A program made the translations under genes and the position numbers. From Alphaproteobacteria bacterium (GTDB lineage Bacteria; Pseudomonadota; Alphaproteobacteria; UBA7985; JAUIBT01), in NCBI GenBank assembly GCA_030428565.1, contig JAUIDR010000008.1, forward strand, positions 1 to 64,000: DNA of 64,000 nucleotides, read 5' to 3'. Shown one piece after another: positions 19,349-21,728 of the stretch (within the stretch, counting starts at the first letter, position 1; every line of letters starts with the position of its first letter). Under the pieces are notes generated by a model. That model saw only the letters and a program-made list of their open reading frames with translations. It did no database searches and was not told the origin of the DNA.

Positions 19349-20206
19349 GTGCCCCAATCATTTGACCCGAACTGGCCAGAACGCCCGCAGTCGCCCTCTC
19401 GTCGCGAACTGCCAGCGGGCTGGCAACCGATCAGCATCAAGGAACAGGCTGGCCTTGCTGCTGCCTTTGCAAAAGAGCTGGACGCTAAGCATCCGCTTGC
19501 AAGGGCCGACTGGCGATTGATCGCTCACCACGTCACTCAAGATAGCTTCGTGGCCGAAGCGCCAGCACTTACGCCCCGCTTTTATTTGCTGCATTTGGCG
19601 TGGGACCAGGGCGGGCCAAAACAGCCGCATGCGCTTGAGAAACTTGGCGACCTTGCAGGCATCTTAGAGCCGCCCGGTGATACGGTCGATGAGCTTAGCT
19701 TGTGGTGTCGCGCGCGCGATGAGCAAGGCCTGGTCTTTGTCGAGCACTTGCTGGATGGCAGCCAGCGCCTGCACTTGTTGGACTGGCCGCCCCATCAAGG
19801 CGAACCGCGAGACTGCCGCCAATTAGAGGCATGGGGCTGGCGGCCGATTACTGGAGCACTGTCGCCAAAGGCCGAGCGCGATGGCAGCCTATGTGCGACC
19901 GGTCAGAGGGTGGAATATTGGCTGCGCCCTGTCATTGACGATTTCATGCTGTTTCGGGCGATAGAGAGCCCGGGCGAAGCCCTATCGCTCAAAAAGCTCA
20001 TGCCCGACGACGGTCTGATTGTGGAATTCGACGACCAGGCAGCGTTGGAGCGTGCCCTGCCGCCAGACTTTTATTGCCGCTTTGTTACGCCCCAAGCGGT
20101 GGGGTTTGGAAGATCCGCCTTGCCGCCGGCACGACCGAGCAAACGGGCTCGATCGACCGAGCATGCAGGCTGGTTAGAGCGCCTCAGAAAGGCCCTTGGT
20201 CGCTAG
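19349..20206 (+). CDS. hypothetical protein
   Basis: Long ORF with GTG start 11 bp after the GltB-like stop; consistent codon usage, no family recognised. Confidence 0.55.
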   Translation: MPQSFDPNWPERPQSPSRRELPAGWQPISIKEQAGLAAAFAKELDAKHPLARADWRLIAHHVTQDSFVAEAPALTPRFYLLHLAWDQGGPKQPHALEKLGDLAGILEPPGDTVDELSLWCRARDEQGLVFVEHLLDGSQRLHLLDWPPHQGEPRDCRQLEAWGWRPITGALSPKAERDGSLCATGQRVEYWLRPVIDDFMLFRAIESPGEALSLKKLMPDDGLIVEFDDQAALERALPPDFYCRFVTPQAVGFGRSALPPARPSKRARSTEHAGWLERLRKALGR

Positions 20207-20550
20207 ACGAACAGACGCCCAACACGCCGAGACGCCAGCAGCCAAGAGACCAGGCCGCCGCCGCCCAACCAGGCTGCTAAAAACTCCAAGAGGGCGACCA
20301 GCAGCTTAAGGACAGACTCAAGGTCGCTTCCTTGTGCCCACTCTTGCAAAGGTGTCGCGTAGGCAAGAACCGCCATGATGGCGCCAATCGCAGTCTTGCG
20401 GCCTTTTAAAAACTCCGCCAACGGACGAATGCCGACCGCCAAGATGACATCGACAAAATTCAGGTCGCGTGCACCGTCGTCGCTCTGCTTGGTGTCCTTG
20501 GAACCCCGCGTACCCGGCGCACTTGCGGTCTTGTTGATAGCAGTAGTCAT
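20203..20550 (-). CDS. holin-like small membrane protein
   Basis: 115 aa; two hydrophobic segments (TAIGAIMAVLAYATPL; LLVALLEFLAAWLGGGGLVSWLLA), charged N-terminus, short basic C-terminus; third gene of a putative lysis cassette. Confidence 0.5.
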   Translation of the reverse strand: MTTAINKTASAPGTRGSKDTKQSDDGARDLNFVDVILAVGIRPLAEFLKGRKTAIGAIMAVLAYATPLQEWAQGSDLESVLKLLVALLEFLAAWLGGGGLVSWLLASRRVGRLFV

Positions 20551-20580
20551 AGATTTCCCTTTGTCATTCAGTTTGAAGAA

Positions 20581-21048
20581 TTAAAAATCGACACACCAAT
20601 CTTGTTTGGCGCCGTGCCCAAAATAGGGAACGGCCAAGCCAAAACTTTGAATATGGGTCGCCCAGTCGAGGCCGCTCTCGCTGCTGACGGCCGCGATGTA
20701 ACGGCCGCCATATTTGCCGACTTCGACTTGGTAGACAGAGACACGTTGGCCTGGCGGTAAAGCCTCGATCATCAGGCGCTTAGCGCGTTCGGCCAGGTCA
20801 CGTTCTTGCTGACACTTGCCGCGTCGCTCGGGCGTATCGATGCCCCGCACGCGAATAGCGACGTCGCTGGCTTGGGTATTGGGCCAGATGTAGGCATCAA
20901 CGACCAGGGTATCGCCATCAATGACGCGCTTGACCTGGCCCAAGATCGGACCGGGATAAAGGGGCTCCGCGCTGGCGCTGGCGCTGGCAAGCAGAACAGA
21001 AGTCACCATCCAACACGCCACTAGCCGACAATTAGAACGCCAGACCAT
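20581..21048 (-). CDS. secreted thermonuclease (SNase) family protein
   Basis: Signal peptide; VKRVIDGDTLVVDA...IRVRGIDTPERRGKCQQERDLAERAK...KYGGRY matches the SNase active-site pattern. Confidence 0.88.
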   Translation of the reverse strand: MVWRSNCRLVACWMVTSVLLASASASAEPLYPGPILGQVKRVIDGDTLVVDAYIWPNTQASDVAIRVRGIDTPERRGKCQQERDLAERAKRLMIEALPPGQRVSVYQVEVGKYGGRYIAAVSSESGLDWATHIQSFGLAVPYFGHGAKQDWCVDF

Positions 21049-21051
21049 GCT

Positions 21052-21486
21052 CTAGTTTGCCCTGCGCACGCCGAGCAACTTGGCTTTAGGATACGTGGCC
21101 ACAGTGACCGCGTCTCCTTGGTTACCGCCCAGAACTTCAAGGCGTCCGTTGCTCTGCTGCAAAAAGAAAGCGACGTGGCCTTGCCAAGGGCTGTTACCGC
21201 GCGAAAACACGGCGACGTCACCGGGCTTGGCGTCGGTGAGCTCAATTTCGTCCCCCCATTTGAGAAACGAGCGCGCCGTCGCCGAACGCGTGCCTCGCTG
21301 GCCTGTTACTTCTAGGCACCAATTGACGAAGGCAGCGCACCACGGTGTTTCGTCGTCACTGGCGGCGAGCGTCGTCGCCTGGTGGTAGGCGACAATCCGC
21401 TGATTGTGCTGACTTCCCTTGACTTCATGGACACCGATTTCCTTTTCCGCGGCAAGGAGATGGAGCGGCTTGGAACTCTTTGACAT
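21052..21486 (-). CDS. TIGR02594/CHAP-like phage-type peptidoglycan hydrolase
   Basis: AAEKEIGVHEVKGSQHNQRIVAYHQAT...DETPWCAAFVNWCLE...KPGDVAVFSRGNSPWQGHVAFF: Cys/His of an NlpC/CHAP-type hydrolase. AAGGAGG RBS upstream of ATG 21486. Confidence 0.82.
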   Translation of the reverse strand: MSKSSKPLHLLAAEKEIGVHEVKGSQHNQRIVAYHQATTLAASDDETPWCAAFVNWCLEVTGQRGTRSATARSFLKWGDEIELTDAKPGDVAVFSRGNSPWQGHVAFFLQQSNGRLEVLGGNQGDAVTVATYPKAKLLGVRRAN

Positions 21487-21505
21487 AAGACTTTCGCCTC
21501 CTTAT

Positions 21506-21520
21506 GTTCGTCTTCTGTTC
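21506..21520 (-). promoter_or_regulatory. candidate LexA (SOS) box GTTC-N7-GTTC (GAAC-N7-GAAC on the coding strand)
   Basis: GTTCgtcttctGTTC, 20-34 bp upstream of the hydrolase start codon; direct-repeat pattern of alphaproteobacterial LexA sites. Confidence 0.55.
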
Positions 21521-21728
21521 TGTTTTCTCACAGACATACACACATGTAAATAGTTATTTTATTGCTTAATATTCATATGTGCCATTTATCGTGGTGATAC
21601 GGAGTGCAGCGAGCCAGAATACTGGCCGCTGCGATCACGCGACATTGCAATGCATTCAAAGGCTTGCGACTTGACGCCAACCCGTGTTCGGGCCCAGACT
21701 AGGGGCTGTGGATAAAGGGGGGAAAGCC

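Follow-up and report, generated by a model that had tools for sequence, protein, structure and literature searches.

A phage-related hydrolase, nuclease and membrane protein cassette behind a conserved SOS-type box in an alphaproteobacterial genus

How might a phage-type cell wall hydrolase, a nuclease and a small membrane protein come to stand together on a bacterial chromosome behind an SOS-type box, and would such a cassette serve the lysis of the cell that carries it? The question is raised by a locus in a 64-kb stretch of alphaproteobacterial DNA (hereafter the window), which we compared with the genomes of two further species, the only others of the genus that were available. The window's genome (G000) and the two others (G001 and G002) are all fragmented assemblies.

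Gene content and promoter of the cassette

Three minus-strand genes occupy positions 20203 to 21486 and encode, in order from the promoter side, a hydrolase, a nuclease of the SNase family and a 115-aa membrane protein. The features of the locus are the following:

21545 to 21550, minus strand: -35-like TTTACA hexamer, invariant across the three species in the promoter alignment; no clear -10 was recognised in the window's genome
21506 to 21520, minus strand: LexA-type SOS box GTTCgtcttctGTTC, reading GTTC-N7-GTTC on the plus strand and GAAC-N7-GAAC in the operon sense
21497 to 21503, minus strand: AAGGAGG ribosome-binding site of the hydrolase gene, beside the box, as read from the sequence
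21052 to 21486, minus strand: peptidoglycan hydrolase of 144 aa, TIGR02594 and CHAP-like, without a signal peptide
20581 to 21048, minus strand: SNase-family nuclease of 155 aa with an N-terminal hydrophobic, signal-peptide-like segment
20203 to 20550, minus strand: membrane protein of 115 aa from a lineage-specific family, the last module gene in all seven copies

Profile searches and hydropathy bore out the original prediction of a TIGR02594/CHAP hydrolase, an SNase with a signal peptide and a 115-aa membrane protein. The hydrolase matched TIGR02594 in NCBIfam (E=2.9e-38) and CHAP in Pfam (E=2e-9), and in the PHROG search it matched phrog_1259 (6.2e-36) and several endolysin PHROGs, which places it within the phage endolysin and tail-lysozyme families. 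Membership of the 155-aa protein in the SNase family was likewise found, with a PF00565 score of 21.7 bits that lies just above the Pfam cut-off of 21; the protein also matched the endonuclease family phrog_452 (2.9e-13), and its N-terminus is hydrophobic at residues 9-27. Sequence searches of the PDB with the hydrolase and the nuclease gave no match at E<=0.01. The 115-aa protein has two hydropathy peaks and no match in Pfam, PHROG or NCBIfam, hence none to a holin family, and its structure model is poor (pLDDT 52). Comparison of the three orthologues gave dN/dS values of 0.05-0.11 for the hydrolase, 0.17-0.24 for the SNase and 0.11-0.17 for the 115-aa protein, with dS >1, and these values therefore indicate that purifying selection maintains all three cassette genes.

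The box lies between the -35-like hexamer and the ribosome-binding site and ends 20 bp before the hydrolase ATG, so that its predicted place, 20-34 bp upstream of the first ATG and beside AAGGAGG, proved correct. The window has no other GTTC-N7-GTTC, and 1.54 are expected by chance; considered in the window alone, the match is therefore not significant against chance and proves nothing. The outcome changes when the genus is considered, and conservation upstream of the orthologous cassettes, proposed earlier as a check on the box, was found in all three species: GAAC-N7-GAAC in the operon sense stands at the equivalent position upstream of the hydrolase gene as GAACAGAAGACGAAC, GAACATAAATAGAAC and GAACATAGATAGAAC. 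The aligned promoters have much diverged, with the TTTACA hexamer and both half-sites invariant, and a site would fall within the 31-bp slot by chance with a probability of about 4e-4 in G001 and 5e-4 in G002. A coincidental box, tenable on the window alone, was rejected on this conservation, by virtue of which, and not of its match alone, the box is considered real. Its spacer in the window's genome is atypical, ranking 25 of 72 sites by a scoring matrix that was trained on only nine distinct spacers, a tiny set, and that scored the window's own box low, whereas the orthologous boxes of G001 and G002 score among the best.

Sites of the same type mark genes of the SOS response in these genomes. 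GTTC-N7-GTTC, the motif given for the LexA of Caulobacter (PMC9578287), precedes lexA and ssb in each of the three, as expected of an alphaproteobacterial SOS box, and a one-base variant, GTTC-N7-CTTC, was read by eye upstream of recA in both genomes that yielded this gene. By their boxes, all three orthologous cassette promoters fit the alphaproteobacterial LexA regulon.

Chromosomal setting and phage relatives

The cassette occupies the same chromosomal slot in G001 and G002, where it adjoins the same 285-aa gene and a gene with a glutamate-synthase domain; the methyltransferase gene, complete in G002 and truncated in G001 where the contig ends, flanks it on the opposite side. The 115-aa family was found only in two related MAGs within the contig collection searched, and phage records and IMG/VR contained no member of it. 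Close relatives of the hydrolase (E<=1e-20) occurred in six of 289 genomes of the class, two of them from the genus itself, and at the four hydrolase loci from the remaining genomes of those six neither an SNase motif nor a box was seen.

All three genes have homologues elsewhere in the window's genome, within the contractile-tail block C59 and within the podovirus-like prophage C68; G002 has such homologues at two contractile-tail loci, and terminase, portal and capsid genes accompany one of these. C68 carries terminase, portal and head protein genes, and its lysis module comprises a LydA holin, hydrolase, SNase and membrane protein. C59, with sheath and tape measure genes, is ended at the sheath gene by the contig end and is compatible with a phage or a tailocin. 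Transposase-like ORFs, recognised from translation, lie beside a phage tail block at the end of contig C39 of G002 (L024, 13807-15219, plus strand). The absence of integrase and structural phage genes noted in the original prediction thus holds for the immediate flanks of the cassette, but not for the genome, which elsewhere has two prophage regions carrying the module.

The order in the prophage modules is holin, hydrolase, SNase and membrane protein, and the chromosomal copies lack the first of these genes, which was identified as a LydA holin (PF16083, 1e-16 to 4e-19) in the three of four copies that were tested. Neither LydA nor any other holin match was found in or beside the chromosomal cassette. 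The 115-aa protein had earlier been put forward as the standard holin of the cassette, a reading opposed by the separate LydA holin of the prophage copies and by its own lack of a holin family match. Searches upstream of the prophage modules found no GTTC-N7-GTTC box; one such site in contig C4 of G002 sits inside the hydrolase gene, and another near C68 sits beyond the last module gene. In a tree of the concatenated sequences the three chromosomal copies split from the four phage copies with a support of 100, and a single domestication before the species split, with holin loss and gain of an SOS-type promoter, would be the simplest account. The proposal of a phage-derived, chromosome-resident operon behind a conserved SOS-type box is supported by the prophage homologues, the synteny and the box in three species. 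Use by a gene transfer agent, also suggested earlier, was dropped, since the RcGTA marker GTA_TIM (g15) was found in none of the three genomes, with a positive Caulobacter control.

A probable SOS lysis operon, its possible benefit and the alternatives

All exact GTTC-N7-GTTC sites of the window's genome were listed, and nearly all were inspected and compared with G001 and G002 as separate stretches. A family of glycine-zipper proteins stood out, with eight members in the three genomes (L036, 1559-2092, plus strand, and L186-L193), all of them encoded near a GTTC-N7-GTTC box; in the members whose start could be placed, the box lies about 43 bp ahead of it. Downstream of seven of these genes, all that could be read, lies an ORF for a membrane protein of 55-66 aa, and the eighth stands at a contig end. 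In its arrangement this pairing is that of a bacteriocin gene and its immunity gene, and the glycine-zipper proteins are thus bacteriocin-like, although they gave no match to a toxin family. Two members of the window's genome are divided over different frames, perhaps through decay or an assembly error.

We consider it likely that the cassette is a phage lysis module that was domesticated before the three species split and is now a LexA-repressed host lysis operon, possibly one that releases co-induced bacteriocin-like proteins. The course of events that we infer, from LexA binding and induction through the role of the 115-aa protein and lysis to bacteriocin release, would begin with LexA repressing the operon from the box just upstream of the ribosome-binding site. 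Upon DNA damage, RecA would be activated and LexA would leave the box, so that the hydrolase, the nuclease and the membrane protein would be expressed together. The hydrolase has no signal peptide and therefore should need a route across the inner membrane, for which the 115-aa protein is a natural candidate because it stands beside the hydrolase in seven of seven copies. The hydrolase would thus reach and cut the wall by way of this protein, which we propose as its export or permeabilising partner, or of another holin-like protein acting in trans; given that the prophage copies have a holin in addition to it, an accessory role for the 115-aa protein is also conceivable. The SNase would be exported by its own signal and cut DNA, which could equally serve nutrient recovery or the turnover of extracellular DNA. 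By analogy with the phage relatives and with earlier cases (PMC4834629, and an excerpt of PMC8958291), a subset of cells would lyse and release the glycine-zipper proteins, as colicin or pyocin producers do. Since the same type of box stands at the cassette and at the glycine-zipper genes, this release is proposed as the most likely benefit of the operon. Against the lysis operon weigh the want of a recognised holin, the poor model of the 115-aa protein, the atypical box spacer in the window's genome and the small basis of comparison, three genomes in fragmented assemblies.

Known systems offer several points of comparison for the lysis operon. In Pseudomonas aeruginosa, the R/F-pyocin lysis genes (Lys PA0629 and Hol PA0614) and explosive cell lysis involve a phage-derived host endolysin, linked to RecA and the SOS response, that lyses a subset of cells, and their contents are released (PMC4834629); there, however, the endolysin lies inside the pyocin cluster together with a holin, whereas the present cassette stands alone, has no recognised holin, includes an SNase and carries a LexA-type box directly at its promoter. 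The alpBCDE genes of P. aeruginosa, according to excerpts of PMC7969949 and PMC9578287, are chromosomal self-lysis genes that DNA damage switches on in a subset of cells. They are alike by description, as host lysis genes linked to damage and the SOS response, and differ in being run through AlpR and the antiterminator AlpA. Another system is alphaproteobacterial: the prophage endolysin and holin Pden_0381-0382 of Paracoccus denitrificans, in the excerpted text of PMC8958291, are RecA-dependent, lyse cells and form vesicles, and also represent SOS-linked release by a phage-type endolysin. They differ in lying within a prophage region, in the amidase type of the endolysin and in the putative holin adjacent to it, and that excerpt makes no mention of a nuclease. 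Phage-type lysis genes were also co-opted by the host in RcGTA (PMC6363796), under the control of GafA and CtrA, whereas the window's genome is without the GTA marker.

What is already known, then, is SOS-linked host lysis as such, in the pyocin lysis genes and alpBCDE; what differs here is that a recognised holin is lacking, that a nuclease belongs to the operon and that the module stands alone on the chromosome with the LexA-type box directly at its promoter. If the lysis operon is real, evolution would have discarded the holin of a phage module and put what was kept, the endolysin, the nuclease and the accessory membrane protein, under the DNA-damage switch of the host.

Colicin operons contain a lysis gene. 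The present genes would resemble them in having a LexA-controlled toxin with immunity and SOS-linked release, LexA control of the toxin being described in an excerpt of PMC4482635, and the colicin operons differ in that their lysis protein is a lipoprotein whereas the cassette is an endolysin module. Moreover, the toxin-like loci found here, the toxicity of which is putative, lie scattered, with no linkage to the lysis genes. A dispersed colicin-like system can be suggested only tentatively, and we rather doubt it: numerous bacteriocin-like genes, unlinked, under LexA control and each paired with a small immunity-like membrane protein, would share one phage-derived, LexA-controlled lysis operon that has lost its phage holin, and the 115-aa protein would be a new type of holin or an endolysin-export protein. 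The lysis operon raises the questions of whether a signal-less endolysin can be delivered by the 115-aa protein and whether unlinked SOS-controlled bacteriocin-like genes rely for release on one shared lysis operon. Our literature search found no paper that joined colicin, bacteriocin, lysis protein and LexA in alphaproteobacteria.

It is unlikely, in our estimation, that the cassette encodes an SOS-induced pair of enzymes that act without lysis, the hydrolase being exported by way of the membrane protein and remodelling the wall and the SNase degrading outside DNA, for instance for nutrient recovery or for clearing extracellular or incoming DNA during damage. Loss of the recognised holin and the SNase's own signal would agree with such a pair, as would a second, unlinked SNase-like protein, which is membrane-anchored and has a box 18 bp upstream that is kept in all three species (L038, 1533-2084, plus strand). 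The hydrolase, however, has no signal peptide, and its close relatives stand in the lysis position of phages, behind a holin.

That the cassette is a lysis module acting in trans for a resident prophage or for tail-like particles seems improbable. The genome does hold C59 and C68, but each has its own complete module, holin included, and the upstream regions of the prophage modules showed no box. Besides, G001 (86% complete) keeps the chromosomal 115-aa gene and no phage copy was found there, and the RcGTA marker is absent. If the cassette were the remnant of a decaying prophage and its box a coincidence, the missing holin gene would be accounted for, and chance alone should supply about one GTTC-N7-GTTC per window; this reading is nevertheless very improbable, being already contradicted by the intact frames under purifying selection in three species, the synteny and the conserved box. 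An anti-phage or abortive-infection module, by which an infected cell would be killed once the SOS response is induced, would fit the SOS-type control and the union of a nuclease and a cell wall hydrolase in one operon, and with the sequence giving it no specific support it is hardly to be expected.

Other genes also lie near GTTC-N7-GTTC sites. One encodes a protein with a serum amyloid A domain (PF00277, 8.9e-19) about 51 bp from a box (L063, 1028-1450, minus strand). A second repeated family, with products of about 320 aa (L051, 125-1090, minus strand, and L194-L200), gave no confident Pfam or PHROG match, and several of its members have a box nearby, 34 bp upstream in contig C49 of G000 and 32 bp upstream in contig C54 of G002.
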